From assembly GCA_004145215.1 (NCBI GenBank), contig SEAL01000004.1, forward strand, positions 1 through 32,650: 32,650 bases of DNA, given 5' to 3'. Source of the stretch: Chloroflexota bacterium (lineage in GTDB: Bacteria > Patescibacteriota > Saccharimonadia > Saccharimonadales > Saccharimonadaceae). The first letter of the stretch is position 1, and each line of letters begins with the position of its first letter. The translations under genes were made by a program, and so were the position numbers. Below are positions 1 through 24,897 of this stretch, one piece after another. The notes under the pieces are model-generated. The model was not told the DNA's origin. It made no database searches and saw only the letters and a list, made by a program, of their open reading frames with translations.

Positions 1-846
1 CACGTTTCGGGTAGTGGCGTCACCGACACAACTGGGCTAACTCCTGCCGAAGAGGCTGACTTAGATCAAGCATTAATTGACACCTACGCCCGCGCCGGGA
101 TCACTAGCGATCCACTAACACATAGTTCACTTCCACCAACGATGATGGACCTATACGACACGCTCGTGCACATGGAAGGCAGTGGCCCATCACTGGCACA
201 GCGTCTGCGTAAATATACGACCGGAACATTCGCTGGTATATTCAGCCAACAATCGAACATTGATATCAATAACCAAATGGTGATTTTCAACATCCGTGAC
301 CTCGAAGACGAGCTGCGTCCTGTCGCGATGTACATCGTCCTGTCGCACATTTGGAACGTTACACGATCGCACCTAAAAAAGCGCATGCTGATTGTGGACG
401 AGGCCTGGCAGTTGATGAAGTATGAAGATTCAGCGAATTTCCTGTTTAGCCTAGCGAAACGTGCTCGTAAATATTACCTAGGCGTCACGACAATCAGTCA
501 GGACGTTGAAGACTTTATGGCCAGCAAAATGGGCCGTGCAATCGTCGCCAACAGCTCGATGCAGTTATTATTAAAGCAATCTCCGAGTGCAGTAGATGTA
601 TTATCGGACGTATTCAAATTAACCGACGAAGAGCGCAAACGCCTCGCTAACTTCCCGGTAGGGCAGGGACTATTTTTCGCCGGATCAAATCACGTCCACG
701 TTCAGGTCGTTGCATCACGAACCGAACATCAGTTAGTCACGACGAACCCTGTTCAGCAGATGCAAGAAGAAGAACAAAAGCGTCTGCAGGAAATTGCACG
801 ACAACGCGCAGCACAAGAAGCCGCCGCCCAGCAAATGCAACTGTAG
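1..846 (+). CDS. VirB4/TraC-like type IV secretion ATPase, C-terminal part (5' truncated by window)
   Basis: Frame is open from base 1, upstream of the ORF-track Met at 142. Walker B-like 'MLIVDEAWQLMKYEDSANFLFSLAKRARKYYLGVTTISQDVEDF' and 'LLLKQSPSAVDVL...FPVGQGLFFAG' are typical of VirB4-family C-termini. Confidence 0.88.
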   Translation, partial: HVSGSGVTDTTGLTPAEEADLDQALIDTYARAGITSDPLTHSSLPPTMMDLYDTLVHMEGSGPSLAQRLRKYTTGTFAGIFSQQSNIDINNQMVIFNIRDLEDELRPVAMYIVLSHIWNVTRSHLKKRMLIVDEAWQLMKYEDSANFLFSLAKRARKYYLGVTTISQDVEDFMASKMGRAIVANSSMQLLLKQSPSAVDVLSDVFKLTDEERKRLANFPVGQGLFFAGSNHVHVQVVASRTEHQLVTTNPVQQMQEEEQKRLQEIARQRAAQEAAAQQMQL

Positions 847-879: not shown

Positions 880-3870
880 ATGCCTAACCTAAAAGAATTA
901 TTGGAGCGAGAGAACCAAGCGGGAAATCAAGAGGATGGCCAGTTTAACGGTGCCCCAGGTAGGCAGAAAAATCAAGCATTCGACGACATCGCCCGCAACA
1001 CCGAACAAGAAGATTTCAATGATATCATGGACCGAAATCTTGATCATGACAGCCCACTCCGTACAGATTCACATGGCGATACGGTACAAAGAAACTATAA
1101 CGCCGACGATTCCAGCGAGAATATTGATGATGTAAAATCACAAGAAGAATCGAGCTTATTCAAAGGCAATGGGCAAGATACTTCTAATAGCTCGGGCGGT
1201 TTTGGCGGTAAGTTAAAAGGGTTTGTTAAAAAGAAAGGGCCAACTGCAGGTATCGTTGGCTTACTTCTAGGCGGCATGGCAGGGTTCACATTACTACTTT
1301 CACCAGCAGCACTACTTGTCGCTATTGAAAAAGCCGTCACGAACGATGGCTCTGACTCGTCGAGGACCAACGGTGTTATGCGAAGAGCATACATTGGCAA
1401 TGTTCTGAGTAGTACCAAGGACGACAAGCCTTGTGAAGGTTCAAAGGTAAAATGCAAGTTCAAGAGCATCGGGGACAAACAGCTTGATAATTGGAAGAAG
1501 TTGGGATTCAACATAGAATCCACCAAAGATACAAAAAACGGCAGAAACAAAGTTACAAAGATTACATTTCCTGATGGCAAAGAGGTAAATAACGGAAAAG
1601 AATACCACGGCCACATAGACAAGAATGTGAACGCAAACCGAAGTTCAAACCGCGTACTAAATTTGCGGTCTTTTGCATTTATGGATGCGAAGTTTAACAG
1701 TGTGCTAAAAAAGTTTAATATTTCAAAAGGTAACATCCTGAAATCTTCCAATAGTCGCGATAAAGCAGAACGTAAAGCTGCAATTGATAAATCCTTTAAC
1801 GAGAATGTGGGCGCTGGTGAAGACAAGCAGGGTGGAATAACTAAAGTACGGGCAGCACTCGATAAAGCAAAGAAGACACCAGGTCTTCAGCGAGGTGTTA
1901 AAAGTATTGGCCCTACTAGCTCGGCCATCGCAATTGCATGTACCGCATACAATACCGTACGTGTAACGAATGCGCTTGTAAAAGCCGAGCTGATATACCA
2001 GCTGATTGCTTTTGCTTATCCTTTTGTACAAGCCGCCTCCCAAATTCAAGATCAAGGAAATATTGAACCTGAAGTTACTGAAAATATTGGTGACCGGTTG
2101 ACATGGTATGACAAAAAACGAACCAACGACGATGGCACTCCAAATGAAAAATTTGGTTTAACAGCAACAGATTCTCAGGGTCTTCAAACCGCATTAAGCG
2201 GAGACTACAGTGCTTTGACAGATTTTGCAAAAACATATACTACAGGATCAAGTCTTTACGCAATCGCAGGATCACAAGTTATCAGAAATATACAGGACAC
2301 ATTAGGTAAGGATAATATCCGGTCTGTTTGTATAGGCAACAGCTACGTAGGACTAGCATCGAGTGCGACATGTCTCGCAGGTCCATGGGCTGCAGCTCTG
2401 TGCGTAGGTTTATTGGCGCTAGTGTGGACTGCAGGACCTTACGTTATCGATGCGATCATCGACAAGTTATCCGACCCCGCGATGAAAGCAATCGCTAACG
2501 CAAATCTTACTTCGGACCTCAAAGGAGTGGATGCAGGAAATGCATTAGCTGCAGGTATCGGCTTGATGCTCTCCTATAATAGTCTTGGATCTGGCAATCG
2601 TCCTGTTAAAGATAAAGATAATGGTGGAGTTAATCAAGTTAAGCAGTTTATTACTGCCACAGACCCAGAGTACAATCGCCAAGTCGAACTTGCCAAGTAC
2701 GAAGCAAAAGATACTCCATTCGATATGTACAATCAATACTCCTTCGCAGGAAGACTTGCCGTCGCTATGAATCCATACAATTCAGGGGCGAGAGCAGGCT
2801 TTGATAAAGCAGCTAATATGCTTGCCGTGCTAACCACTCCGCTATCAATGCTATCAACAACCGCCAGCGCGTTACATAGTCAGCCATCTATGATGACTGC
2901 AAACGACAAGACATTAGAAGGTAGAATGAATAACTGTGGAGATGTTGATATGGCCGATACCGGTCTAGGCTGCGACTGGTCTGGTCGCCTGATTGGATTT
3001 TCATCGCCGAACTTTTTAACAATGGCCTCGAATCAAGCAACCGAGGATGTAGCTGAAATAGATAGCGTAACTGACAGGTTAATTGCCGCAAAAGACATTG
3101 ATGATGACGGAAAGCCTGTAAAGATGGACGAAGACATCGATGATATGAGCGAATACGCAAAATACCGTAAATTCTGCACCGAACAAAGGACTGATTATGT
3201 CGGTACATCATCCATCCCAATTGAAGAGGGTAGCGAAGCAGATCAGGATTGGTACGATGGAAAAGCGTGCGCATACGGAAACGCTGAAGTCTCCGAATCA
3301 AGGTTAGACGACTTCGCATTCTACTTTAACTGGTGCGAACGGCAATTTCCTGCCGCTGAAGGACTTTCGACAACAGATTGTTGGAGCGACTCTGCTACGC
3401 CGAGCGCACCAACCGGCAATGCTGGCGGCTCGATTCCTGCGAATGGCCCATGGGGGTGTCCGGTAAATATTAACGCTGGCGGCGTCATGACGCAGGCTCA
3501 GCATGATATCGGCAATGGGACAGCATCAGGTGTTGATTATGGATATGGCGGCAACCCTATAGGACCACCGGCCGGAATTTATGCAGTACGCGATGGCACC
3601 GTCGTCGAGGCGGGTCCAGCTAGTGGTTACGGTAACTGGGTTATGATTCAACATGAAGAGAACGGGCAGCCTATCTATAGTTATTATGGTCACATGCAAT
3701 CGCAACACATTTATGTGAAGGTTGGAGATTCAGTCAAGATTGGGCAACACATAGCCGATCAGGGAAGCGAAGGGTATAGTTCGGGTCCTCATGTCCATGT
3801 TGGGTTAAAGATGAGCTCTGGCCCGACAGCACAGGACTATGAAACAAGGTTCATGGCGGCATGTCAATAA
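880..3870 (+). CDS. Large multi-TM T4SS-associated (VirB6-like role possible) protein with C-terminal M23/LytM-like domain lacking the first zinc His
   Basis: 996 aa. Acidic N-terminus, TM segment GIVGLLLGGMAGFTLLLSPAALLVAI and further hydrophobic segments. C-terminal 'GVDYGYGG..IYAVRDGTVVEAGPASGYGNWVMIQHEENG...YYGHM...GPHVHVGLKM' matches the M23 fold. Confidence 0.8.
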   Translation: MPNLKELLERENQAGNQEDGQFNGAPGRQKNQAFDDIARNTEQEDFNDIMDRNLDHDSPLRTDSHGDTVQRNYNADDSSENIDDVKSQEESSLFKGNGQDTSNSSGGFGGKLKGFVKKKGPTAGIVGLLLGGMAGFTLLLSPAALLVAIEKAVTNDGSDSSRTNGVMRRAYIGNVLSSTKDDKPCEGSKVKCKFKSIGDKQLDNWKKLGFNIESTKDTKNGRNKVTKITFPDGKEVNNGKEYHGHIDKNVNANRSSNRVLNLRSFAFMDAKFNSVLKKFNISKGNILKSSNSRDKAERKAAIDKSFNENVGAGEDKQGGITKVRAALDKAKKTPGLQRGVKSIGPTSSAIAIACTAYNTVRVTNALVKAELIYQLIAFAYPFVQAASQIQDQGNIEPEVTENIGDRLTWYDKKRTNDDGTPNEKFGLTATDSQGLQTALSGDYSALTDFAKTYTTGSSLYAIAGSQVIRNIQDTLGKDNIRSVCIGNSYVGLASSATCLAGPWAAALCVGLLALVWTAGPYVIDAIIDKLSDPAMKAIANANLTSDLKGVDAGNALAAGIGLMLSYNSLGSGNRPVKDKDNGGVNQVKQFITATDPEYNRQVELAKYEAKDTPFDMYNQYSFAGRLAVAMNPYNSGARAGFDKAANMLAVLTTPLSMLSTTASALHSQPSMMTANDKTLEGRMNNCGDVDMADTGLGCDWSGRLIGFSSPNFLTMASNQATEDVAEIDSVTDRLIAAKDIDDDGKPVKMDEDIDDMSEYAKYRKFCTEQRTDYVGTSSIPIEEGSEADQDWYDGKACAYGNAEVSESRLDDFAFYFNWCERQFPAAEGLSTTDCWSDSATPSAPTGNAGGSIPANGPWGCPVNINAGGVMTQAQHDIGNGTASGVDYGYGGNPIGPPAGIYAVRDGTVVEAGPASGYGNWVMIQHEENGQPIYSYYGHMQSQHIYVKVGDSVKIGQHIADQGSEGYSSGPHVHVGLKMSSGPTAQDYETRFMAACQ

Positions 3871-5159
3871 TATTTCGAACAGGTTGGCAGTTACGTCATA
3901 GGCTATTTTATGCAAGTAGCGTAGTACTCATGCTTTTTTCACTTGTCAGTCCGGTTCAAGCGAGAGACTTACTTTTCCGCGCTAATAACGACGTACTTTA
4001 TTCGGACGACTGTGCACCATCAACCTCGGGATCTGCGACACCAAATGCGCCAGGTACTCCAGGAACACCAACAGGTACTTTCACCGGGGGCGGTGATTGC
4101 GGAGATCAAGGTTATGGATCTGGTGCGCGTAATTCTCAAGCAAATAAAGATACGATCTGGAAGTATTTCAAGGATAAAGGTATGTCCGACACTGAAGTAG
4201 CTGGTATCATGGGGAATATTCAAACTGAATCCGCTTTCATGCCAGATGCAGTTAACTCTATCAACTGCAAGGGAATTGTACAGTGGTGTTTTGGTAGGGC
4301 TGATGCAATGGTTGCAAAAGCAGCGGAACAGAATAAAGACTGGCGTTGTCTGCAATTTCAATTGGACTACATTTGGTATGAGATAAACGACACGGCAGAA
4401 AAGCAAGTGCGGGACCCACTAAGTAAGGCTTCTACACCTGAAGAGGCGGCAATGGTATTTGCACGAGTTTTCGAACGGCCTGGTGAAAGCGAATATGCCA
4501 CCCGAGACACGAATGGGCGTGCTGTGTTTGATGAATACGGCGGAACCCCTGGTGGAGGTTCGACAAGTAGCCCTGCCGCAACTCAAACAGGCGACACAAG
4601 TAGTAGTAAGTCGTCAGACTGTCTAGATGCCGCTGCAGGCACTGCGGAATCTAGCCCAAAGGGCAGTCTCGCTGACGGTGAATGTTCTGCACTCATCGAA
4701 CGTATTAAGCAATTAAAGGCAGAGGGCAAACTCGTCCTAATGAATGAAGCTCCTGAAATGGAAGATATTGAAAATTGTGGGAATGTCGTCACATGTCCGA
4801 GCTCGGACCATATTGGCATCGAAAAGCGTACGGCTCAAGTATTAATATCACTCGCTGAGCAAAGTGGCCAAGTTGTTAAGGTTTATGCGCTCAATAAAGA
4901 CCACTTCTGTGACGCGGGCGAGCACGGAAAGGGCCTCGGTATAGACATACCTTACAACGCCGGGACGGCCGAGGGTAATGCAATATATAAATATCTATAC
5001 GACAATGCAGGAACGCTAGGCGTTCATAAGTTGATTTACAATCCAACGCCACAGGGGTATGAATGTATGTACGCAGGTGCGCCAGCTGACTGTCGAGAAG
5101 TTTACGCCGATGCGCTTTCTGCCCACCAAGATCACATCCATGTGTCATTATATCCATAG
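3861..5159 (+). CDS. Secreted protein with phage-tail-lysozyme-like domain and C-terminal M15-like (HxxxxxxD...HxH) peptidase-like domain
   Basis: 432 aa. Signal peptide MSIIFRTGWQLRHRLFYASSVVLMLFSLVSPVQA; 'IWKYFKDKGMSDTEVAGIMGNIQTESAF...GIVQWCFGR' lysozyme-like; 'HGKGLGIDIP...HQDHIHVSLYP'. Start overlaps the upstream stop. Confidence 0.78.
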   Translation: MSIIFRTGWQLRHRLFYASSVVLMLFSLVSPVQARDLLFRANNDVLYSDDCAPSTSGSATPNAPGTPGTPTGTFTGGGDCGDQGYGSGARNSQANKDTIWKYFKDKGMSDTEVAGIMGNIQTESAFMPDAVNSINCKGIVQWCFGRADAMVAKAAEQNKDWRCLQFQLDYIWYEINDTAEKQVRDPLSKASTPEEAAMVFARVFERPGESEYATRDTNGRAVFDEYGGTPGGGSTSSPAATQTGDTSSSKSSDCLDAAAGTAESSPKGSLADGECSALIERIKQLKAEGKLVLMNEAPEMEDIENCGNVVTCPSSDHIGIEKRTAQVLISLAEQSGQVVKVYALNKDHFCDAGEHGKGLGIDIPYNAGTAEGNAIYKYLYDNAGTLGVHKLIYNPTPQGYECMYAGAPADCREVYADALSAHQDHIHVSLYP

Positions 5160-5168
5160 GAGAAAACG

Positions 5169-6761
5169 ATGAATTTATTAAAAAAGATAACCGACCTTTT
5201 AAAGCTACCGATACACGTATGGGTACGCATTGCAGTCCTCGTCCTAGTAGTCTGGGGGATATACTATATTACTTCAACTTTTACTCTTGTAAGTATTATC
5301 ATCCAAGACTCGACAAATAATCCAGGTGAGGCAGAGATAATTTCTGAGCGTAAATCCATAGACGCTAAGGCGTATACCCCTCTAAAAGTTGGGCCGATTT
5401 CAATAGCATATCGAGACACAGTTACCGTGCGTGCCGTCAGTGGATATGCACAAACCAGTAAACAGGTTGATGGATTACCATTTCTTTGGTCTGGGACACT
5501 ACAAATCGACATCAAACAAGATATGAATGCGGATAAAGTCGGAACCGATTCGCGAGATTGCTCACTTTATAACATATCAGACGACACTCCTGTATCAGTA
5601 GACTGCATCAACAATACCATTAACCGATATGCCTACACATATACATTAAATCAATCAACGAAACAATGGTTCAATCAAGGTAAAAGGCTTCCGAGATTAT
5701 CGTCGATCGAGCAATTCAACGATGGCATGATAGGTGTCAAACAGGACAGATCTCTTGAAACGACAGCTGATGACTCAGCGGAAAGACAGATCTTCATCAG
5801 TGGCTTCAACAGTGAGCCACAGAGCTTTCCTGCTCCAGGTGACGTGCTCGCCAGCGTCGTTCGTTTTGGTCGAATTGCCACAGATCCAACCAGAGAATCA
5901 CCGCGTTTCATATATAGTTCAATTGATGGTTATATTTATATCGGCACAAAAACAAATGATACTATAACTTACCAAAAAGTAGAGAGACCAAAGAATTATA
6001 GCCAGCGTGATGCGACACTATGTGCGCTCGAGGGCGAGAAAGCCTATTGCTATCAGGGCGAATCTAACCTAAGCGTCTTACCACACGAAGGTGATGAACA
6101 TAGCGAACCGACAGCAAAAACCGGTTTACTAAGGGAGATTGATTTTTCAACACCAACACCGAAAGTAATAGACTACACTACTCGCGCAGGTCTAATGTTG
6201 AACGCTATCGCCACAAAAAATAACACCATAGTGGGGCTCGGTGACGATAAAAATCTCTATACACTTGAGAAAAGGGATTCATCCATAAAAGACGGTATAT
6301 TTGCTAAAAATATTATTTCGATAGCAACAAGTAACGAAATTCTCTACAGCACTGATCGAAGCGTATTCTCGCTCGTCGATACAAAAACATCACAAGCTGT
6401 CTTCACTTCAAAGAGACTATCAATTAAATCTATTTCATCTTATTTAGGAAATACTACAATTAAAGCCTCGATCGATGGCGCAGGTACGAATCTTCATACT
6501 TACAAACTCACGAATGAGCTCAACGAAACCGCAGGATCTCGCCTGATTGACATACTCCCTCTCGATTTTAGAGACTCTGTCAACATAAGTAATATGAACT
6601 TAGTGAAAGATTCACTCTACATCCGCGTCATGATACCGGTTAGTCGGAAGGGTGATGGAATCGACACCGAGATGCTTGAAAATACAAAAAACTCAGTACG
6701 TACAGAGTTGTCTAAAGCAGGTGTGGATGTCAATTCATTAGATTTGCATTTCTCTTACTAA
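5169..6761 (+). CDS. Single-TM protein with large extracytoplasmic domain, function unknown
   Basis: 530 aa. RBS-like ggagaaaacg before ATG; N-terminal TM 'VWVRIAVLVLVVWGIYYITSTFTLVSIII'; long soluble domain; in operon with neighbours. Confidence 0.75.
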   Translation: MNLLKKITDLLKLPIHVWVRIAVLVLVVWGIYYITSTFTLVSIIIQDSTNNPGEAEIISERKSIDAKAYTPLKVGPISIAYRDTVTVRAVSGYAQTSKQVDGLPFLWSGTLQIDIKQDMNADKVGTDSRDCSLYNISDDTPVSVDCINNTINRYAYTYTLNQSTKQWFNQGKRLPRLSSIEQFNDGMIGVKQDRSLETTADDSAERQIFISGFNSEPQSFPAPGDVLASVVRFGRIATDPTRESPRFIYSSIDGYIYIGTKTNDTITYQKVERPKNYSQRDATLCALEGEKAYCYQGESNLSVLPHEGDEHSEPTAKTGLLREIDFSTPTPKVIDYTTRAGLMLNAIATKNNTIVGLGDDKNLYTLEKRDSSIKDGIFAKNIISIATSNEILYSTDRSVFSLVDTKTSQAVFTSKRLSIKSISSYLGNTTIKASIDGAGTNLHTYKLTNELNETAGSRLIDILPLDFRDSVNISNMNLVKDSLYIRVMIPVSRKGDGIDTEMLENTKNSVRTELSKAGVDVNSLDLHFSY

Positions 6762-6834
6762 CATCCCTCAATACTCTGTACATATTATCAATTTTGTGGT
6801 AATATAGTTTCCGTATAGAGAGCTCTTATGGAAG

Positions 6835-9402
6835 ATGGTGAATTTCGAAATCGTAGCAAATATGATGACCCGAATAATAATGGGTTTGACGTTCGACACC
6901 AAGAGCAAAATCCTCAACCAATCCCCAGACAAAAAAGGATCATTAAAAGGCAAGACATCGCTGATTACTATTATTTTAGTATTGTTTGGCGGGGCGGGCG
7001 TAATGACAATTATGTCTTCGCCGGTGTTTGCGATCGTGCAATTCAAAGAACTCCTTGCAAAAGATTTAAACGACCAGCTGGCCGCGTATGACGCGAGTCA
7101 GGTGACGATGCTGCGCGCAAAACTAAAACAAACGACTCAGGGTTCGTGTGGATTAGTAAAGATAAAATGCAAATTCAATACGATGAGCGAACGACAAGTG
7201 AAGAATCTGGAAGCGAGCGGCCGGTTAAAAATAGACCTCGATAAAACCGTTGGATTCGGCAGTAATCGTGGTCGCGTCAAGAGCATCACGCTACTTGACG
7301 ACAAAGGTTCGCCGACCGCTGTCTATGACACTCCTGAAAAATTCGCAGCCGCCATGCGAGGTACTGGCAGCATTGAACTGCGTTCAGCAATCGCCAGCAG
7401 GCTGAATCCGACCGTTAATAGTATCAATGACCCAAGCGGCAAACGAAGCCTCGCTAAATTGGGCGTGCGACTGAAAAACGTCATCAGCGGTAGCAACAAA
7501 GAAGAACGTCAACGGTCACTGAACAGTGCTGTCGAAAATAAGACTTCACCGAGTGGGCGAACCTTGACACCAATCACAAATGACCGAGGGGAAACGACGG
7601 GGTATACCGATGACACCGGCCGGCAATATACTCCTGATGAAGTAAATAGAACGAATGAATCTGCATCGCGCATAGCATCATCCGCTGGAACGATGAAAGT
7701 CTTGCAGGGAGCTGCGCTCGGCGCAAGCATTGTTGGCGCAATTGACGCATCCTGCACGATCTACAATACATCCCGCGCCGTCAGCGGAAAAACTGCCTAT
7801 GACTCTGCTGGCTATCATTTAGCAGCATATGGTACAACCGCACCACTGAGCGCACGAGACCAACGATTGATGATCGGTGGCGGATTGGTCGGTAAACTCG
7901 ATGTCGTGAATCAGGCTATCGCGACCGTCGTCAACGGCGGTGATCCGGATCCGAAAGAAGTGAGTAAAAAATGCGGTTATGTTCAGAATATATTTATACG
8001 AACAGCCGCAGTAGGCATTGGCATCCTAGCTGGCGCTGGAACGCTAGGCCTTTTCACTGTCGCGTCAGTTGCCGGATCGACCGTTATTTCACTCGCGCTA
8101 CCTCTACTCGAAGCGCGAATGGCCGATATGTTAAAGGGTGAGGTCTACACCGACCTAGAAGGTCAAGACAGTGGCAGTGGTGGATTTGTCGGTACGGCAG
8201 CTATCTATAGTCAAGCAGCTCAGGATCGCGGTATGAAAGCGTTGAGTAGCGAAGAGGCGTTTCAGCAACAACAGATTACTCGCCAAGCCAACGCTCGTAT
8301 GGACGAGGTAGGCTATTACATGGCGCGCTCAACGCCATTTGATATTATGAATCGTTATTCATTCCTGGGATCGATCGCGTACGGCATTACACCAACTGTA
8401 CAACAATCGAAAAGAACGGTTGCAACCGCCGCCATGGGGCTATTTAATAGCTTTTCACTAGCAGCATCAATAGCAAATCCCCATGCGAGCGCCGCAACAT
8501 TATCCCAAGAACGATTCGAGCAATCGAATGACCAAGATTACTTATCTGCTGGTATCGGTGCGGACATGTTTGGTAATGTTCGTTTTGGACTGAGTCGCGA
8601 AGAAATGGAAATGGATCCGTTTGAAAACATTGATTGGCTAGTTAGTACGGGAAATATTGATCCTAACGACGAAAGTGGTGTCGCTATCGATAATGGACAG
8701 CCGTGGAATTACATGAAATACATGGAAACGTGCGTCGCAAAACCGATCGACTACACGTATGCTCCGTGCCGATCCGAAGAAAACGAGCCACTTAATAAAC
8801 ACTTCCGTGTCTTCACTATCCACAAGACAATCGATGAAAATCTAGATGAAGAAAACCAGAATACCCTCGCGCCAGGTGAAATGGGTGCCAATCCGGGTGA
8901 ACGAGGCGAATTAGGTGTCGATGGCTGGGCGTATCCAACCGTACCCGAGAGTATTGTGACGAGCGACTACAAAACGCCACAGCGTCCATCACATCGAGGC
9001 GTCGACATGGCGCTACGATCAAGTGATATTAATGCCGCTATGGGTAAGCCAATTTTTGCCGCACGCGACGGGGACGTCGTCGCAGCCGGGCCAGCTTCTG
9101 GATTTGGAAATTGGATTATTATTCAACACACCGTCAACGGTCGCCGCGTCGATACAGTCTATGGACATATGTACGATGATGGCGTCCTAGTAAAAGTCGG
9201 TCAAAAAGTGACTGCTGGCCAACAAATTGGAAAAATCGGCAGCAACGGGCAAAGTACCGGCGCGCACTTGCACTTTGAAGTTTGGGAAGGTGGTCGACTA
9301 CCCGAAGGGGCGGGGCAAGAAACGAACCCTAATCCAGTACTCGAGGCCGGAAAAGGTAATGCCGGATCACAGCCTGCTGACGATCCGAGGCGGAGAGTAT
9401 AA
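6835..9402 (+). CDS. Paralogue of the 880-3870 protein: multi-TM envelope protein with intact M23 (LytM) peptidase domain
   Basis: 855 aa. 'SHRGVDMAL...IFAARDGDVVAAGPASGFGNWIIIQHTVNGRRVDTVYGHMYDD...GAHLHFEVWEGG' has HxxxD and HxH zinc motifs. Shared segments with the 996-aa protein: CKFxxxxxxQ, C..YNT.R, 'TPFDxxNxYSF'. Start is uncertain (see finding). Confidence 0.83.
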   Translation: MVNFEIVANMMTRIIMGLTFDTKSKILNQSPDKKGSLKGKTSLITIILVLFGGAGVMTIMSSPVFAIVQFKELLAKDLNDQLAAYDASQVTMLRAKLKQTTQGSCGLVKIKCKFNTMSERQVKNLEASGRLKIDLDKTVGFGSNRGRVKSITLLDDKGSPTAVYDTPEKFAAAMRGTGSIELRSAIASRLNPTVNSINDPSGKRSLAKLGVRLKNVISGSNKEERQRSLNSAVENKTSPSGRTLTPITNDRGETTGYTDDTGRQYTPDEVNRTNESASRIASSAGTMKVLQGAALGASIVGAIDASCTIYNTSRAVSGKTAYDSAGYHLAAYGTTAPLSARDQRLMIGGGLVGKLDVVNQAIATVVNGGDPDPKEVSKKCGYVQNIFIRTAAVGIGILAGAGTLGLFTVASVAGSTVISLALPLLEARMADMLKGEVYTDLEGQDSGSGGFVGTAAIYSQAAQDRGMKALSSEEAFQQQQITRQANARMDEVGYYMARSTPFDIMNRYSFLGSIAYGITPTVQQSKRTVATAAMGLFNSFSLAASIANPHASAATLSQERFEQSNDQDYLSAGIGADMFGNVRFGLSREEMEMDPFENIDWLVSTGNIDPNDESGVAIDNGQPWNYMKYMETCVAKPIDYTYAPCRSEENEPLNKHFRVFTIHKTIDENLDEENQNTLAPGEMGANPGERGELGVDGWAYPTVPESIVTSDYKTPQRPSHRGVDMALRSSDINAAMGKPIFAARDGDVVAAGPASGFGNWIIIQHTVNGRRVDTVYGHMYDDGVLVKVGQKVTAGQQIGKIGSNGQSTGAHLHFEVWEGGRLPEGAGQETNPNPVLEAGKGNAGSQPADDPRRRV

Positions 9403-10739
9403 TGCGACGATTCTTTATCGGTATCATTACCGTCTGCTTTATCTTGTCGCAGACTGCGCCAACAGTTCAGGCGGTTGCAGAACTTGATAAAACGTTCTTT
9501 CATGGCAATGATATTTCGTTTTATGATCCTACGTGCGAAGCTAAAAAGGTTAGCCGCGTCACACTGGCGGGTGATAATAATATCGAAAAATTAATGAATC
9601 TGTTCATGCGCGAAGGCAATATGAACGTCGCACAGGCAAGTGGCATCTTGGGGAATATGATCCAGGAGTCTGGCGGCAAAACTATCATGATCGGTAGCGG
9701 TTCAAAGCAGGTATCGATCCAAGAACCGCAGCCAAATGTTCGACAGGGCGGACGAATTGTTGACGACACCTATGTACCAGAAAATAGTGTTGGATTTGGA
9801 TTAGTGCAGTGGACATTTACCGGTCGCCAAAAACCACTCCAAGATCACATGCGTAAATTAGGCGTCGGCATCACCGATTTGAGTGGCCAGGGCAGTTTTG
9901 TTCTCGAAGAACTGCGCGGACCTTACAAAAAAACACTCAATGCATTACTGGCAACGAACGATCCCGTCGAAGCTGCAGTAATCGTGCACGGTCCACCGTA
10001 TCCGGGATACGAAGCGTCCGCCGACTCTGCCGATAAAGTCCGTACCGTTCGTGGTGGTAACGCAAAAAAGATTTACGACGCTTTTTCTGACGCTTCGGCG
10101 CTAGCCGGATCGACCGCACCAGATGCGCTGAACAATCCGAGTACTGGCGATGGCGACGCGTCATCGACTGACGCCGCCCAGCAAGTCAGCAATATAACGA
10201 CAACTCCGCAGGGGAGTAAAGATTCTAGCTGTAATGAGTCAGGATTTGGCGGCGGTGATCTAGGTGCAACGACAACCGCTTATGCCTGGAGTGACTATAA
10301 AGGCAATGACATTAAAGCCCGTCAGGAATACACCGATGCCGTGAACCGAGCGATGAGCGAAAAACGCTACGTCGGTGGAACTGCATACAAAGGAATCGAC
10401 TGTGGCGGCTTTGTGACGACATTACTATACGACAGCGGCTTTGATAAGTCGTATAATAGTAACGCAAAGGGAGGCAATACCGTATCGCAAGAAGCATGGT
10501 TAAAGCAAAACTGGACACCGATTAGTGCAACTGATGCCGGGGATAGGCAGCCAGGCGACGTCGCGATCAACGCCCAGCACACGTATGTCTATGTTGGCGA
10601 TATCAACGGATTCAATAGCAAAATCGCTTCCGCTTCGTGGGACGAGCGTGCGCCAATGGCCGGTAAAGAAGCCGTGACTGACAGTTCATTCCGGTGGTAT
10701 CGTATTAAAGCAACTGAACAAAAGAATATAAATATCTAG
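9402..10739 (+). CDS. Secreted protein with phage-tail-lysozyme-like domain and C-terminal NlpC/P60-like domain
   Basis: 445 aa. Signal peptide; 'MNLFMREGNMNVAQASGILGNMIQESGG...VGFGLVQWTFTGRQKPL'; 'GIDCGGFVTTLLYDSGFD...RQPGDVAINAQHTYVYVGD' resembles the Cys/His core of NlpC/P60. ATG overlaps the upstream TAA by 1 nt. Confidence 0.8.
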   Translation: MRRFFIGIITVCFILSQTAPTVQAVAELDKTFFHGNDISFYDPTCEAKKVSRVTLAGDNNIEKLMNLFMREGNMNVAQASGILGNMIQESGGKTIMIGSGSKQVSIQEPQPNVRQGGRIVDDTYVPENSVGFGLVQWTFTGRQKPLQDHMRKLGVGITDLSGQGSFVLEELRGPYKKTLNALLATNDPVEAAVIVHGPPYPGYEASADSADKVRTVRGGNAKKIYDAFSDASALAGSTAPDALNNPSTGDGDASSTDAAQQVSNITTTPQGSKDSSCNESGFGGGDLGATTTAYAWSDYKGNDIKARQEYTDAVNRAMSEKRYVGGTAYKGIDCGGFVTTLLYDSGFDKSYNSNAKGGNTVSQEAWLKQNWTPISATDAGDRQPGDVAINAQHTYVYVGDINGFNSKIASASWDERAPMAGKEAVTDSSFRWYRIKATEQKNINI

Positions 10740-10741
10740 TT

Positions 10742-11380
10742 ATGACAAATGAATTTTTCCTCACTCACCGAAAAAAGATCGTTATTGGCGCGATACTCCT
10801 TTTTGTCGTGTTCGTTCTATTTAGTGCCGCTACCTATATATCTAGGTCCGGAAAAATCGGTGTGACTTTTTCTATCGTTCCAGGTGATGCATCATTGACC
10901 GTTAATGGTAACAAAAGCGGCAAAGGAACACAGTGGTTAACGCCAGGTACGTATACGATAAAAGTTGAAAAGAACGGATTTCAAACCGTTGAAAAACAGA
11001 TCATCGCCGACGCCAACAAGGAACGAAATGTAGCTGCCGTATCACTGACTCCAGAATCCGATGAAGCCAAGGCATGGGCAGAGAAAAACCAAAATTTATA
11101 TAAAAGTAATGAAGAATTTGGTAGTATTGAGGCCCAAGAAACCGGAAAATTCCTGCGCGCTCGTCATCCGATTATCGACGTTTTGCCGTACAAAGATCCC
11201 TATTATACAGTCGCATATCGACTGAATAATGATCAGTCGATCACACTGACCGTCGATACACCATCGCCACGATATCGTTATTTCGCTGTCCAAAAAATCC
11301 GTGAACTCGGTTATAATCCAACCGATTACGATATCGAATTCAAGCAGTATAAAAATCCGCTCGGAGGTAGCGATGAATAA
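10742..11380 (+). CDS. TM-anchored PEGA-domain protein
   Basis: 212 aa. N-terminal TM; 'GVTFSIVPGDASLTVNGNKSGKGTQWLTPGTYTIKVEKNGFQTVEKQI' is PEGA-like. Confidence 0.78.
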   Translation: MTNEFFLTHRKKIVIGAILLFVVFVLFSAATYISRSGKIGVTFSIVPGDASLTVNGNKSGKGTQWLTPGTYTIKVEKNGFQTVEKQIIADANKERNVAAVSLTPESDEAKAWAEKNQNLYKSNEEFGSIEAQETGKFLRARHPIIDVLPYKDPYYTVAYRLNNDQSITLTVDTPSPRYRYFAVQKIRELGYNPTDYDIEFKQYKNPLGGSDE

Positions 11381-11867
11381 TCGTCAAACCGTCATATTAG
11401 GCATTTCGACAGTCGTCGTACTGGCAGTTGTTGTCATCGTCGGTGTTGTCGTCAGCTCTCCGCAGCAACCAACTCCAGCGCCCGCACCTCAGCAACAGAC
11501 TGACAGTCGACCACTTTCCGAGCAAGAATTAGATGCATTACTCCAGACGGAATTGCCGACACTTGCCGAAGTTCTGACGACAAAATTTCCAGCCGCAGTT
11601 GACCTCTATACGATCAACCAAGGAAAATTATATGACCGTGGTCAATGGTATGGGACGACGCTGACATATCGGGGGAGTGATGAAGATAATCGTGACACGC
11701 TACGCGTTCTGATGCAGAAAAAAGACGGCGTCTGGATTGTTCGAACAACGCCACCACAATTACTGCTCAGTCAAAAATCATATCCTGACGTACCAAAAAC
11801 AATTCTACAGACTATCAATCAGCCAGCCGAATTACCAGGTACGACTTCATCGCCCGCAATTAACTAA
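11373..11867 (+). CDS. Small TM-anchored protein of unknown function
   Basis: ATG at 11373, preceded by ggagg and overlapping the upstream stop, is a better start than the track's 11301. 'MNNRQTVILGISTVVVLAVVVIVGVVVSSPQQPTPAPAPQQQ'. Confidence 0.7.
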   Translation: MNNRQTVILGISTVVVLAVVVIVGVVVSSPQQPTPAPAPQQQTDSRPLSEQELDALLQTELPTLAEVLTTKFPAAVDLYTINQGKLYDRGQWYGTTLTYRGSDEDNRDTLRVLMQKKDGVWIVRTTPPQLLLSQKSYPDVPKTILQTINQPAELPGTTSSPAIN

Positions 11868-12904
11868 CCTAGATCAATAATAGAGGCTTCGTCGATCATC
11901 GCCGCACTACTAGCGCTGGTCATAATAATCTGGTTACCTTGGAATTTTGTCGCTAGGTGTGTTTGCCGTTCCTGATCCAATTCGCCGAATACGTCGTCCA
12001 GTAAAATCAGTGGCTGCTTGCCGGTGATTTCATGAATAACATCGACTTCTAGGAACTTCAAGGCCAGCACCGTACTGCGCACTTCACCGCGCGAAGCAAC
12101 CGATAGGGCGGGCATGCCATTGAATTTGAATTCGACATCATGACGATGCGGTCCGATACTGGTGTAGCCCAATAATTTATCACGCTCTAGCCGCGCGTGG
12201 AGCTCGCTGAGCAGCTTTTGCTTGATATTGTCGATGACGGTATGGGAATAGTGCATCGATACCGTGTCGGACGACTGAGCGATCGTATTGTAGGTCGTAT
12301 TCAGCTCGGCGTTCAATCGTTCGATGAATTCAACCCGGCGTTCGATAATAATTGCGCCGTATTCGCTCAGTGCGACATTCCAGACGAACAGATCGTCGGT
12401 AGGAAAATGACTTTTTTTCAAAATCGTATTGCGCTGCCGCAAAGCTCGGTCGTATTTACGGAGGGCCTGAGCATATTCCGTATCTAGCTGGCTGATAAAG
12501 CGGTCAATGAACTGACGACGACGGGACGGTGACCCATGTAATAGACGTAAATCTTCAGGTTCGAACAGAACAATGGGGTATTTATATGCCGGTGTCAGAC
12601 GGTAGGCGGTTTTGTCGTCAACGACGAACTGCTTTTTTCCACTAGTTTTTGACGGATCGAATTTAACCGTTCGATCTCCCTCGTCGCTGCGAACATCAAT
12701 GCGCCACCACGGACAGTCATACTTCAAAACATCAGTATCTGTCCCTTTAAACGACGTTCCTTGCAGGGCAATCGTCAGTGCCTCAATAAGTGACGTTTTT
12801 CCACTGCCATTTTTGCCGGTGATCAGTGTGACGCTCGGTGAAAGTGTATGCGTAAAAATAGCATGTGTTCGGACATTCTGAACTTGCAGGGAAGAAATGA
12901 TCAC
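11864..12904 (-). CDS. recF: DNA replication/repair protein RecF
   Basis: 346 aa. 'LITGKNGSGKTSLIEAL', 'FEPEDLRLLHGSPSRRRQFIDRFISQLD', 'LLDDVFGELD'; directly downstream of dnaN. Confidence 0.95.
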   Translation of the reverse strand: MIISSLQVQNVRTHAIFTHTLSPSVTLITGKNGSGKTSLIEALTIALQGTSFKGTDTDVLKYDCPWWRIDVRSDEGDRTVKFDPSKTSGKKQFVVDDKTAYRLTPAYKYPIVLFEPEDLRLLHGSPSRRRQFIDRFISQLDTEYAQALRKYDRALRQRNTILKKSHFPTDDLFVWNVALSEYGAIIIERRVEFIERLNAELNTTYNTIAQSSDTVSMHYSHTVIDNIKQKLLSELHARLERDKLLGYTSIGPHRHDVEFKFNGMPALSVASRGEVRSTVLALKFLEVDVIHEITGKQPLILLDDVFGELDQERQTHLATKFQGNQIIMTSASSAAMIDEASIIDLG

Positions 12905-12916
12905 CGCGGCGACCGC

Positions 12917-14017
12917 TTAACTCTTTAATGGCATAACTATGTGGACATAGTCGCTATTTTTACTGACGGTCGATAGTACACATGGGGATAACTTTCCGCT
13001 AAAGCGAAATTGTACCGTCGGGCCCGTTAGTACTGAAAGTGCATCGGCCAAATAGCGCGAGTTGAGAGTAACTTGACCTTCTGCAGAAACTTCGGCAGTC
13101 GATGTTGAGGTATTTTCACCAAGCTGTGAGGCAATCGAGTGAATCGCAAGGGTTTTGTCGTCGCTGCTCGCCGTTAGCGTCACGCTTCCACCGGATTCCC
13201 GGGCAAATAAACCAGCAATTTTGGTAATGCGGACAAATTCTGATTTTTCAATCACGACGACTGATTCAGATGACGCCGGGATTAACTGGCGATAATCAGG
13301 GAAATTACCATCGATCAATCGGCTCGTTACTTCTGATTCACCGGCTCGGAATCGTACCTGCGTTTCATCAAACAACATATCAACTTCGCTAATATCATCG
13401 CTTAATGTTCGCAGTACCTCCTGCAGGGTAGTAGCGGGAATAATTGCCGCTACATCACTTTGCGTTTCGACAAGTCGTTTTTCGGTTAACCGATACCCGT
13501 CAGTTGCCGCTAGATAAAGTGATCCTTCGTACGAATGCCAATAGACACCTGTCAGCACCGGGCGAGTTGCGTCGTTACTAGCGGTTAGTATTGTTTGCGA
13601 CACGGCCTGTTTAAAGTCAGCCGCATTAATACTGTACTGAATCGACGACGTTTCATCGATTGTCGGTAATTCAGGGAAGTCATCCGATGCAATACCATTA
13701 ATCACTGAGCTAAAGCCACCCGCTGTAATATGGAGGTGATCATTTTTTACCAGTAATTCGACATTACCTTTCGGAAGTGACGAAACGAACTCTGCAATTA
13801 ATTTCGCTGGAACAGTGATTGATCCAGGTTTGGTGATTTTAGCTCCTATCAACTGTGTCGTTGCGATTTCTAAGTTGGTCGCTGCAACAAGTAATCGATT
13901 GCTATCGGTCCTCAGAAGGATGTTGCTGAGTATAGGCAATTGTGTTTTAGTACTAGCGACTCTTGATGCTGCAGTCAATGCTTTGGATAGGTTTTCTTGT
14001 GTGACGGATAGTTCCAT
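12917..14017 (-). CDS. dnaN: DNA polymerase III beta sliding clamp
   Basis: 366 aa. 'MELSVTQENLSKALTAASRVASTKTQLPILSNILLRTD', 'LAATDGYRLTEKRL', C-terminal 'YVHIVMPLK'. Confidence 0.96.
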   Translation of the reverse strand: MELSVTQENLSKALTAASRVASTKTQLPILSNILLRTDSNRLLVAATNLEIATTQLIGAKITKPGSITVPAKLIAEFVSSLPKGNVELLVKNDHLHITAGGFSSVINGIASDDFPELPTIDETSSIQYSINAADFKQAVSQTILTASNDATRPVLTGVYWHSYEGSLYLAATDGYRLTEKRLVETQSDVAAIIPATTLQEVLRTLSDDISEVDMLFDETQVRFRAGESEVTSRLIDGNFPDYRQLIPASSESVVVIEKSEFVRITKIAGLFARESGGSVTLTASSDDKTLAIHSIASQLGENTSTSTAEVSAEGQVTLNSRYLADALSVLTGPTVQFRFSGKLSPCVLSTVSKNSDYVHIVMPLKS

Positions 14018-14296: not shown

Positions 14297-15670
14297 TTAT
14301 GCATATAATTTCTCCTTTATTTCTGCGACTTGTTCGCGAATTGTGAAATCTAACTTTATAGACTTCTCGATTTTCTCGACAGAATGGATAGCAGTGGTAT
14401 GGTCTTTACGACCTAGTTCGCCGGCGATCTTTGGAAAACTGAGATGTAGTTCGCTACGTAATAGATACATGGCAATTTGGCGCGGTGTCACGATATGTTT
14501 GTCGCGACGGCTGCTGCACATTTCGGGTGTCGTCAACTGGAAGTACTTCGCCGTCTTGTCGATGATTTGTTTTGACGTCAAATGCTGGGGGCGACTATGG
14601 CGGACATTACCAACTAAACCTTCGGCGGTTGTAATGTCCGGTTCGATGCCGCGCATTTCCGCGTAAGCGAGCAGTTGATTGAGCGCACCTTCGAGCTCAC
14701 GGATGTTAGTCTTTATATTATTAGCGAGGTATTCTGCCGTTTCATGGTTCAGCTCGACACCAGATAGGGCAGCCTTTGCTTCCAGGATGGCGCAGCGAGT
14801 TTCAAAATCAGGCATCTGGATGTCGATGGACATGCCCATTTCAAAGCGACTTCGTAAACGTTCGGTTAGCGTAGGGATGCTTTTGGGTGGTTTGTCGCTA
14901 CTGATAATGATCTGCTTGTTGTTTTGATGCAGCACGTTAAAGGTATGGAAGAATTCTTCCTGGGTCTTTTCTTTGCCGGCAATAAACTGCATGTCGTCAA
15001 TAATCAGAACATCAACGTTGCGGTATTTATCAGAAAAACCTTTTTTCTTGAATCGGATACTGTCCATGAATTCTTTGACGAAAGTTTCTGAACTGATATA
15101 GAGAATGCGGGCATCTGGTTGGTTTTTTACGATCTCGTTACCGACAGCCTGCATCAAGTGCGTTTTACCCAGCCCAACACCACCGTAGAGGAAGAGAGGG
15201 TTATATTTCACACCGGGATATTGCGCAACAGCTTGGCAAGCTGTGTAGGCTAAGTCATTACTAGATCCGACAATAAAATTATCGAAATTGTAGCGTGGAT
15301 TGAGGCCACTAGAAGGGGAGAGCTGGCTAGCGGAGGTGCGAGGTTTTGGGCGAGGGGCGATGAGTTCATCGACGCTATCAGATGCGGTTTGTGTTGTTGT
15401 TTCCCGACTAACGACTGTCTTTTTGCCTTGTGTTCTAACGGTGTAGGCGATCTTTGCGGGATGCATGCCGTTCTTTGCCAAGACTTCTTTTACCTGGTCA
15501 TTAAATTTAACTTCGAATTGTCGAATGGCGAATATATTCGGCACCGCAATCGTCACTTTTTCATCGGTTACTTCAACCAGTTCGGTGTTCTGGAACCAAG
15601 TGATAAAAGTGGCGTGCGATACAGATAATTCAATTTCACCTAAGACTGATTGCCATAATGAATTATGCAC
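14297..15670 (-). CDS. dnaA: Chromosomal replication initiator DnaA (GTG start proposed)
   Basis: 'GGVGLGKTHLMQAVGNEI', 'VLIIDDMQFIAGKEKTQEEFFHTFN', 'TPRQIAMYLLRSELHLSFPKIAGELGRKDHTTAIHSVEKI'. The N-terminus VHNSLWQSVLGEIELSVSHATFITWF fits domain I starting at GTG (15668-15670); the 52 aa upstream in the track do not look DnaA-like. Confidence 0.95.
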   Translation of the reverse strand: MHNSLWQSVLGEIELSVSHATFITWFQNTELVEVTDEKVTIAVPNIFAIRQFEVKFNDQVKEVLAKNGMHPAKIAYTVRTQGKKTVVSRETTTQTASDSVDELIAPRPKPRTSASQLSPSSGLNPRYNFDNFIVGSSNDLAYTACQAVAQYPGVKYNPLFLYGGVGLGKTHLMQAVGNEIVKNQPDARILYISSETFVKEFMDSIRFKKKGFSDKYRNVDVLIIDDMQFIAGKEKTQEEFFHTFNVLHQNNKQIIISSDKPPKSIPTLTERLRSRFEMGMSIDIQMPDFETRCAILEAKAALSGVELNHETAEYLANNIKTNIRELEGALNQLLAYAEMRGIEPDITTAEGLVGNVRHSRPQHLTSKQIIDKTAKYFQLTTPEMCSSRRDKHIVTPRQIAMYLLRSELHLSFPKIAGELGRKDHTTAIHSVEKIEKSIKLDFTIREQVAEIKEKLYA

Positions 15671-15734
15671 GTAACCCTCTATCCCTCTATGTGTTATGTT
15701 TGGTGTTTTACCCAACGTTTTGTTACGTTCAACT

Positions 15735-15935
15735 ATACGGTATTCACAAGTTTTCCACAACTTTAAAAGTGTTTTTCGAGCGTAGGTCAAATAGAGGAGC
15801 GATTTATCCACACAGTGCAGTCTCATCTGTTAATCTGTGGATAACTAGGTGCGCTTGGTGGATAACTTTACTATATTAGGATACTCAAGTGACTACTTTT
15901 CAAGCATGACTGTAATCACAGCTGTGGATAGCAAA
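15735..15935. promoter_or_regulatory. oriC region with DnaA boxes
   Basis: TTTTCCACA 15751-15759, TTATCCACA 15804-15812, TGTGGATAA 15836-15844, with one-mismatch boxes at 15857-15865 and 15923-15931; located between dnaA and rpmH. Confidence 0.85.
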
Positions 15936-16015
15936 AGCGGCATTAGATACCCATAAATTGTTGCTACTCGGGGGAGCTTGTCAAAAGGGCAAAAAAGAGG
16001 TATTATGGTACAGAT

Positions 16016-16153
16016 ATGCCAAAGCGAACACACCAACCCCACACTCGTCACCGCGCAAGGACGCACGGCTTCCGCGCTCGCGTGAGCACAAAAGCTGGTC
16101 GCGCTGTGATCAAGCGTCGCCGAATTAAAGGCCGCGCAAAACTTACTGTCTAA
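16016..16153 (+). CDS. rpmH: 50S ribosomal protein bL34
   Basis: 45 aa, absent from the ORF track: [45 protein letters not shown]. Confidence 0.96.
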
Positions 16154-16171
16154 TTAGACAGTAAAGCAGCA

Positions 16172-16206
16172 AAAACCGCTCTATGTGATAAACGTAGAGC
16201 GGTTTT
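16172..16206 (+). terminator. Intrinsic terminator-like hairpin between rpmH and rnpA
   Basis: AAAACCGCTCTA (16172-16183) and TAGAGCGGTTTT (16195-16206): perfect 12-bp stem, 11-nt loop, ending in TTTTAGTTT. Confidence 0.8.
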
Positions 16207-16223
16207 AGTTTATACTGAAATAT

Positions 16224-16580
16224 ATGTTAGCTCAGCGCAACCGATTTCATGGCCATGGCAGCCTACGATTCCTGTACAAAAATGGACAGGCGGAGCGTTC
16301 ACGCACCATTACTTTGAAACACATCGAAAACCCGCGTCGCAAGCATACACGTGTCGCTGTGGTTATTAGCAAAAAAGTATTAAAGAGTGCAGTACTTCGC
16401 AATCGAGTTCGTCGCCGCGTCTATGAGATCATCCGCCAAGATCTGCCGCAACTGGACACATCGTATGATTTAGTATTTTTAATTTTCAGTGGCGAAGTGT
16501 TAACGATGCCGCACGACGAATTATTGGCGCAGATGAAACACCTAACATCGGCCGCTGGTATCTATAAAAACCAGCGCTAA
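16224..16580 (+). CDS. rnpA: Ribonuclease P protein component
   Basis: 118 aa. 'RVAVVISKKVLKSAVLRNRVRRRVYEIIR' is the RnpA signature; position after rpmH. Confidence 0.94.
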   Translation: MLAQRNRFHGHGSLRFLYKNGQAERSRTITLKHIENPRRKHTRVAVVISKKVLKSAVLRNRVRRRVYEIIRQDLPQLDTSYDLVFLIFSGEVLTMPHDELLAQMKHLTSAAGIYKNQR

Positions 16581-23355: not shown

Positions 23356-24897
23356 ATGAGGATGGATATATCTATTGTATGGTTTCGCCGCGATCTACGT
23401 CTGTTAGACAATGAGGCTGTTTCAAGGGCCACGACCGAATCCACACAATGTTTGTATGTATTCATTATTGATCCATGGTTTTTTACGCAACCAGAGATTG
23501 GGCTGCTGCGCGTCAAGTTCATGTTTGAGTGCTTGAGTGCACTCGATGATCAGCTACAAAAATACGGAAATAGGTTAACTATCCTCAGCGGAGAAAGCGT
23601 CTCGACAATGTCGCACCTAATCGATAGTCTTAAAGCAAATGGATATCGTCCAAAGCTCTATTTCAATCACGACATTCAAGTGTCGTACGGACGACAACGC
23701 GACGATGCAATAACTGCGTACTGCGACGCTAATAATATTCCTTTAGCTACTACCTACAACTACTTTCTATTACACGACGAGGCAGAAATGGATGACTGGT
23801 GGAAGCGGTATTACGAGTACCAATACACAGACCAATTCCCGTTGCCTGACATTCGTCCAGAACAGGCGGAAGTCAGGAATATAGTCAACCAGCTTGACCA
23901 GTTTGGCGCACAGACGTTAGCGAAGGATTTGTCGTTAACGTTGCCAAGGCCGACACAGACACTCTTTGTCGGGGGAGAGAATGCAGCTCGACAGGCAGTA
24001 TATTCGTTCATCAAAGATAGGGTGAATGGGTATCGCTGGAAAATATCTCGACCCTTCTTGGCGCAAAACGGAGCAACGTCGCTACTCGGTCCACATTTGG
24101 CATTTGGAACGGTATCGAACCGGGCAGTGTTCCAGGCGGCGGCCGGTCATCGCACGAGAGTAGTGGCCGCTCGACCGAAGAAAGCATTTGATATCGCAAC
24201 GTATCTTGATAGGCTGCGGTGGCGCGATAGTTTTACGCAGCGGCTCTGGTTTCATCCCGATCTAATATGGAAGAACCGTTTTGCAGAGTTTGATGATGTC
24301 TATAACGAAAAAGCTCTGACCCCGCAGCAGCAAGAATATTTTGATCGTTGGAAAAATGGCACAACAGGCTTTCCACTGCTCGATGCGGCGATGACGCAAT
24401 TGAAGCATGATGGCTTTATTAACTTTCGAATGCGCGCAATGGCGGCGACGTTCCTGACCATCAACTGTGGCGTCAGCTGGCATCACGGAGCTCGTCATTT
24501 TATGAACTGTCTTGTTGACGGAGATATTGCAATTAACCACTGGCAGTGGCAGATGCAAGCGGGCATTACAAATCCGCTCAGTCCTACGTTTCGAATGTAT
24601 AGTCCGACGAAAAACTTACGCGACCGAGACAGCTCGGCTGCCTATGTTCATTTTTGGCTCCCTGAAACAAGAGGGAAGGATGTTGACACTATCCTCAGCG
24701 AGGCGACGCCTATGCTTGATTTTAATGAAACTCGCAAGGTGAATGGCAAAATTATTTCTGATCTCCGCAAACAAACACGAGAACGTATCATTGCTGAAAA
24801 AGGTATCGAACTAGAAGGTGCAGAAACAGCTCATGCTGTTGTCAAAGGCTATGATAAACGTTCCGCCGATCGGTATAAACGCTATATCAAAGATTGA
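23356..24897 (+). CDS. Deoxyribodipyrimidine photolyase/cryptochrome, class I-like
   Basis: 513 aa. 'ISIVWFRRDLRLLDNEAVSRA', 'FINFRMRAMAATFLTINCGVSWHHGARHFMNCLVDGDIAINHWQWQMQAGITNPL...RMYSPTKNLRDRD'. Confidence 0.92.
   Translation: MRMDISIVWFRRDLRLLDNEAVSRATTESTQCLYVFIIDPWFFTQPEIGLLRVKFMFECLSALDDQLQKYGNRLTILSGESVSTMSHLIDSLKANGYRPKLYFNHDIQVSYGRQRDDAITAYCDANNIPLATTYNYFLLHDEAEMDDWWKRYYEYQYTDQFPLPDIRPEQAEVRNIVNQLDQFGAQTLAKDLSLTLPRPTQTLFVGGENAARQAVYSFIKDRVNGYRWKISRPFLAQNGATSLLGPHLAFGTVSNRAVFQAAAGHRTRVVAARPKKAFDIATYLDRLRWRDSFTQRLWFHPDLIWKNRFAEFDDVYNEKALTPQQQEYFDRWKNGTTGFPLLDAAMTQLKHDGFINFRMRAMAATFLTINCGVSWHHGARHFMNCLVDGDIAINHWQWQMQAGITNPLSPTFRMYSPTKNLRDRDSSAAYVHFWLPETRGKDVDTILSEATPMLDFNETRKVNGKIISDLRKQTRERIIAEKGIELEGAETAHAVVKGYDKRSADRYKRYIKD

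Follow-up and report, generated by a model that had tools for sequence, protein, structure and literature searches.

The origin-proximal end of the type IV secretion system (T4SS) analyzed here probably consists, with a probability that we put at about 0.6, of two non-identical wall-penetration modules that serve one VirB4 machine and divide the labour between them. Both modules are linked to the T4SS, embed wall hydrolases with unlike peptidase types, and lie behind one common origin-linked VirB4; moreover, their evolutionary behaviour differs. Module 2 (A2, B2, C2, and D2) is the standard Saccharibacterial cassette, and its architecture is the same in all two-module genomes over the readable part. 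Module 1 (A1, B1, and C1), located in the virB4-proximal slot (slot 1), traces back to an earlier divergence within the A family and has undergone repeated replacement and domain shuffling.

The window, i.e., the whole stretch of 32,650 nucleotides analyzed, is the entire contig C71 of a genome (G000) of 1.1 Mb in 106 contigs, which is 86% complete. Among the named genomes found by these searches, the closest to it is CP011211.1, the closed genome of Ca. Saccharibacteria bacterium GW2011_GWC2_44_17 (hereafter G109). The window starts inside virB4, which is cut by the contig end; the C-terminal 281 residues of this T4SS ATPase (1..846, + strand) match P-loop_TraG (5.5e-16) and NF045971 conju_CD1110 (3e-46). 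The start of the gene lies on contig C64, whose last 119 bp are identical to positions 1-119 of the window; given this exact overlap, C64 is very probably located immediately upstream. It harbors an array of VirB2-like pilin genes (six sites with PF18895 matches, including five strong ones), PrgI/VirB3 near virB4 (PF12666, 5e-13), a broken third A paralogue (A3), and a TrbL/VirB6-like protein of 797 aa, whose PF04610 match (24.0 bits) is under the curated cut-off of 25.9 but exceeds it in the relatives G109, G041, and G082. The T4SS context proposed in the initial annotation is thus borne out by the joined contig. VirB4 has a mean column identity of 76% among 13 Saccharibacterial VirB4s, and only one origin-linked copy is present per genome. 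A sequence search for a VirB8-like subunit did not retrieve any match. On the other side, the cassette is bounded by recF (11864..12904, - strand; TIGR00611, 5.3e-90), according to synteny in both single- and two-module genomes, followed by dnaN (12917..14017, - strand; TIGR00663, 2.4e-83) and dnaA (14297..15826, - strand; TIGR00362, 1.8e-153) in the neighbourhood of the replication origin. A promoter and terminator scan of the locus gave a signal near the shuffle background, which says nothing on the operon limits. To our knowledge, the relaxase and the coupling protein are absent from, or unlinked to, Patescibacterial (MPF_FATA-like) T4SSs. As far as the published account describes it, the locus is the same origin-linked chromosomal T4SS, near dnaA/dnaN, that has been reported for Patescibacteria (PMC12102498).

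The initial annotation had depicted a tandemly duplicated cassette of three genes, coding for a large multi-TM protein with an M23 domain, a secreted lysozyme-like protein, and a single-TM protein; all seven of its open reading frames were confirmed with their coordinates. A1 (996 aa; 880..3870, + strand) and A2 (855 aa; 6835..9402, + strand) share a conserved, Cys-containing core and a C-terminal M23 domain (E 6.7e-20 and 1.2e-25, respectively), the latter with intact zinc ligands (HRGVD, HLH) in A2. Regarding the multi-TM topology, one N-terminal TM segment is clear, and one to three further hydrophobic stretches have moderate support. The homology of A1 and A2 spans about 650 residues besides M23: blastp aligned residues 125-773 of A1 with 46-640 of A2 (E 1.7e-10), the genome-wide search gave E 3e-9, and the motifs originally quoted are present in both proteins (CKF at 192 in A1 and 112 in A2, CxxYNTxR at 354 and 307, TPFDxxNxYSF at 612 and 500). 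The structure prediction of the A core (pLDDT 72) yielded structural matches for M23 only, EnvC among them; for the core itself, the structure and PDB searches returned neither a recognisable fold match nor a convincing solved-structure relative. The identification of A as the VirB6 subunit was rejected, since none of A1, A2, and A3 matches TrbL, a TrbL gene of its own stands beside A3, and the structure model matches M23 only.

A3 is about 900 aa long, and a hydrolase domain was not detected in it. Its sequences form one clade in the A-core tree (100/100) and come from the sampled two-module genomes and from g13. The gene follows the TrbL/VirB6-like gene in G109 (7.6e-6) and G140 (weak match); in these two genomes and in G059 it shares the T4SS locus with the modules, and in g7 it lies elsewhere. 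Stops and a change of frame interrupt it in the window genome, where part of its interior also seems to be lacking. Ordinary genomes with one module, G053 and G115 for example, gave one A match only and no TrbL match at the threshold used.

The B proteins are secreted and carry, in agreement with the lysozyme-like assignment, a Phage_lysozyme2 domain (PF18013), with E 7.3e-32 in B1 (3861..5159, + strand) and 9e-20 in B2 (9402..10739, + strand). The signal peptide and the lysozyme constitute their shared part (hhalign probability 99.9, E 4e-34, 202 columns), the lysozyme of B1 being related to that of phi29 gp13 (3csq, E 3.4e-7); the C-terminal domains show no relationship (E 0.39). That of B1, matching PDB entry 9flh (E 6.9e-5), displays the motif HGKGLGIDI...HQDHIHV, whose pattern HxxxxxxD...HxH recurs across 27 proteins and from which a LAS/M15 metallopeptidase type can be inferred. 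That of B2 appears NlpC/P60-like, in a VirB1-like architecture, through a weak match (0.008 for the whole protein and 0.0015 for the domain alone, with 18.9 bits, under the cut-off of 23); the Cys and His residues (DCGGFV...HTYVYVG) are conserved in most of the 53 aligned homologues, and the PDB search returned no match for B2. Each module embeds one lysozyme and two peptidase-type domains.

The remaining proteins, C1, C2, and D2, have one N-terminal TM segment each, as originally predicted for C1 and C2. C1 (530 aa; 5169..6761, + strand) belongs to a small family conserved in type-1 modules, with no Pfam or NCBIfam match and no convincing solved-structure relative. C2 (10742..11380, + strand) comprises a PEGA domain (9.3e-7) and a C-terminal alpha/beta domain, and D2 (11301..11867, + strand, with the start at 11301 or 11373), from a family of 30 with no convincing family match, ends in a small C-terminal domain. 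C2 and D2 are naturally fused in many gut lineages (L096, L098, L112, L117-L120, L153, and others). The AlphaFold model of the L117 fusion (pLDDT 95), in which the alpha/beta domain of C2 is seen, is matched foremost by carboxypeptidase-regulatory/transthyretin-like structures. VirB8 is absent among its 50 best PDB matches, and the idea that C2 or D2 might be the missing VirB8 was dropped on this ground. Between C1 and C2, hhalign aligned only the last ~62 columns (probability 42, E 2.7e-4, with controls reaching about 1e-3); this C-terminal match is marginal, and homology is not claimed. The pairing of the three genes is therefore solid for A, half-shared for B, and doubtful for C.

The synteny of the modules was checked, with VirB4 as the anchor, in a class sample plus 80 named genomes, the architectures being assigned by custom-built HMMs on loci several of which are truncated where the contig or the locus stops. 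The usual Saccharibacterial order is virB4-A-B-C-(D)-recF-dnaN-dnaA, with one module. Two tandem modules were found in at least 11 genomes from six genera, a count that comes from samples made mostly of MAGs and is not a census: the window genome (g1), G109 (g20), G140, i.e., L075 (g94), G041, G082, G116, and G173 (g7), G190 and G197 (g13; slot 1 of G197 is less complete), G130 (g84), and L080. The presence of the same tandem in closed CP011211.1 and on other contigs shows that it did not arise from the assembly. Loci with the modules apart from each other, which speak against the initial annotation, do occur to some extent: type 2 stands alone in most of the class, and four g13 species (G059, G074, G164, and G172) harbor type 1 alone, with recF directly after it, which implies that module 2 is not indispensable. 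The core-only profile of A matched 213 of the 229 high-quality family genomes versus 6 of 145 genomes drawn from the whole phylum; A is thus, at profile sensitivity, nearly confined to this group. Of the initial suggestions, the Saccharibacterial origin of the DNA, the assignment of the wall hydrolases to the T4SS, and the placement of two modules behind one VirB4 are supported.

In the A-core tree (41 rows), the A2 sequences of 12 out of 12 two-module genomes form one clade (100/99), inside a 100/100 clade together with ordinary single-module copies, and a 100/100 branch splits the A2 clade from A1 of the window. The A1 sequences occupy several separate places, those of the window and G109 being among the type-1 copies. 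The backbone tree (recF+dnaN+virB4) places the window and G109 as sister to the single-module G059/G074 (100/100), and this match with the A1 tree indicates that A1 is vertically resident in the window/G109/G059/G074 clade. The AU test rejected three hypotheses: that the duplication in g1/g20 is recent (p 1.4e-33), that A1 and A2 together form one clade (p 5.5e-4), and that the A1 sequences form one clade by themselves (p 7e-4); moreover, no residual direct repeat of at least 24 bp was found. The two modules are adjacent, as the initial annotation had it, but a recent local duplication is rejected. Judging from these trees, the A1/A2 split predates these genera, and module 1 is an ancient paralogue. 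On the simplest reading, both modules were already present in an ancestor of these genera, part of g13 lost module 2, and slot 1 saw several replacements; modules may also have been transferred between genera, the deep backbone nodes being weak.

The two slots differ in their layout. Slot 2 always reads A-M23/Lys+NlpC/C2/D2 where it is readable to its end (G000, G109, G041, G082, G190, G197, and G130), and the other two-module loci agree over the available part. Slot 1 shows at least four A lineages and seven layouts: A-M23/Lys-M15/C1 (G000, G109), A-M15/Lys-M15/C1 (L080), A-M15/M23/C1 (G116, G190, G130), A/M23-Lys/C2/D2 (G140), A-M15/Lys-NlpC/C2/D2 (G082), A-M23/945 aa/C1 (G173, L099), and A-M15/999-aa Lys/others (G041). 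The turnover of slot 1 is therefore clear. Single domains may have moved as well: in the M23-domain tree, the M23 of the window A1 falls with module-2-type M23s (98/99) and that of the G109 A1 with type-1 M23s (98/95), a placement suggesting that the domain of the window A1 was exchanged, probably between modules. As for sequence change, the proteins of the modules have diverged far more rapidly than VirB4: between G000 and G109, identity is 93% for VirB4, 81% for DnaN, and 31.8-61.4% for the module proteins, with 56.7% for A1, 45.5% for A2, 61% for both B1 and B2, 32% for C1, and 56% for C2. In g7, A1 is more diverged (28-38%) than A2 (56-58%); faster change in slot 1 is not uniform, since A1 is better conserved than A2 in G000/G109.

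In principle, we can depict the following scenario. The A protein, with its TM segment, Cys-rich core, and, usually, C-terminal peptidoglycan peptidase, would be a membrane anchor near the channel; B, a secreted lysozyme plus peptidase, would play the VirB1 role and cut the wall around the channel; and C (and D), as single-pass membrane proteins, would probably provide an envelope scaffold. Both modules would feed the single VirB4-driven machine and cut the wall at the assembly or injection site. Alternative or co-assembled wall-penetrating complexes, as initially proposed, are plausible. The division of labour would follow from the unlike peptidases, since two such kits should cut different bonds: the fixed module 2 would most likely open the wall of the cell itself, and the variable module 1 might have adapted to another target, for which the host's wall is the most plausible candidate. 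The full form of this proposal, in which a constant module deals with the wall of the epibiont itself, while a recombining module that can be swapped is matched to the host wall and helps to set the usable hosts, is speculative, and we regard it as rather doubtful.

The best surviving alternative, to which we concede a real though minor chance, is an ordinary gene-family expansion, with the second cassette retained by chance and both modules performing the same VirB1-like job. The number of modules does vary, partial B-C duplications being present in gut lineages (L101, L102, L114, and L140), and four species do with module 1 only. However, both modules are maintained across six genera in genomes of about 1 Mb, their order and the architecture of module 2 are fixed, and the peptidase types differ between the modules.

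It is less probable, and in our opinion unlikely, that module 1 is undergoing decay or has a regulatory role, with an M23 that is a non-catalytic LytM-type activator, like EnvC/NlpD, and modulates rather than cuts. Degenerate LytM domains are known activators, EnvC is among the structural matches of A, and in the ligand alignment the M23 domain of the window A1 lacks the first zinc ligand, HxxxD reading ASGVD. However, A1 of the sister G109 retains HQGID, and B1 keeps both the lysozyme glutamate and the HxxxxxxD/HxH motif; since the window is the only one of the aligned close relatives with the ligand loss, this loss cannot account for the conservation of two modules.

Two separate machines for secretion or DNA uptake, one module each, are very improbable: some two-module genomes do possess a second, distant VirB4 (about 40% identity), but it lies at another locus, was not found in the two-module G041, G082, and G173, and is present in the single-module G074 and G115, so that the modules do not have a VirB4 each. 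DNA uptake, suggested in the initial annotation, is unsupported; no competence gene adjoins the modules. In S. epibionticum, comEC is dispensable and the T4SS essential (PMC12857230), and the literature, as far as these reports cover the point, argues against competence as the reason for this essentiality (PMC12857230; PMC10633639).

The T4SS of Ca. Southlakia epibionticum ML1 (SEML1_0006-0019; Wang et al. 2023, PMC10633639; Quinonero-Coronel et al. 2025, PMC12102498) is, according to these accounts, likewise chromosomal, with an MPF_FATA-like VirB4, PrgI/VirB3, VirB6, a VirB2-like pilin array, and, directly after virB4, homologues of the peptidase and the lysozyme. It is described as essential for growth on the host (PMC10633639), the essential genes including those peptidase and lysozyme homologues (PMC12102498); in the only species examined so far, epibiotic growth requires the Saccharibacterial T4SS, its role being unknown (PMC11665869). 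Unlike the S. epibionticum system as described there, the lineage of the window has two modules and a third A paralogue paired with the VirB6-like protein. A description of tandem modules was not found in the open-access papers searched. The two-module clade represents a natural experiment, with constant machinery on the one hand and a part varying between species on the other, and the contrasting behaviour of the modules, one fixed and one swapped, hints at different jobs. The hydrolase domains are defined units that lend themselves to in vitro assays of wall specificity; if the swappable host-wall module were real, the slot-1 cassette would help to set the host range in this Saccharibacterium clade.

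B2, with a secreted glycosidase and an apparent NlpC/P60-like domain beside virB4, appears similar to the VirB1-type hydrolases of Gram-positive T4SSs (TraG of pIP501, PrgK, TrsG, and CwlT of Tn916), in which a glycosidase is combined with an NlpC/P60- or CHAP-type peptidase. Unlike in these, the glycosidase of B is Phage_lysozyme2 rather than SLT, and B1 has an M15/LAS-like metallopeptidase. Rickettsiales, which likewise depend on a host, have a T4SS with duplicated VirB6, VirB2, and other components (compare PMC2653234). That system is similar in that paralogues of T4SS parts have multiplied around one core; there, the expanded subunits are others and not a wall-hydrolase cassette. The phage phi29 gp13, a tail-tip lysozyme and M23 endopeptidase, combines the same lysozyme family with M23; here, unlike in gp13, the two activities usually reside on separate proteins that are membrane-anchored and T4SS-linked, while slot 1 of L075/G140 encodes them as an M23+Lys fusion, as in gp13.

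The third A-family paralogue (A3) is present in the two-module genomes sampled and also in the species of genus g13; this distribution suggests that the doubling of the module and the VirB6-A expansion tend to go together. In both L036 (6792-11613) and L165 (5929-10769), the partner of A3 is an additional TrbL/VirB6-like gene, the second of its kind. In the window's own genome the A3 gene is broken (L034, G000:C64, 10278-12528, adjoining T4SS genes): what is left is one ORF of 360 aa and another of 367 aa, which lie in different frames with stops in between, and an internal stretch is apparently absent. The gene is intact in the relatives' loci L036, L043, and L165; the disruption in L034 may represent either a pseudogene or an assembly error.

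The single-pass membrane proteins C2 and D2 of module 2 form one fused protein in gut Saccharibacteria (L117, at 15465-16376, L096, L098, L112, L118-L120, and L153), and this natural fusion suggests that they function jointly. The B-C portion of the cassette is partly duplicated in gut lineages (L101, L102, L114, L132, L140, and L152), independently of the two-module clade. In several single-module genomes (L054, L056, L058, L059, L062, and L065), Phage_lysozyme2 is encoded a second time at an unlinked site. The genes around this second copy differ from those of the cassette, seem to be conserved and include no A gene; they may belong to a mobile element or to some other machine.

Within the window, a photolyase/cryptochrome-family gene (23356-24897; TIGR03556, 5.4e-61, under that family's curated cut-off) is unusual for a genome so reduced. 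A 630-aa protein with Ig-like/adhesin-type repeats (28707-30599; NF058592, 4.1e-27) is a candidate surface adhesin.
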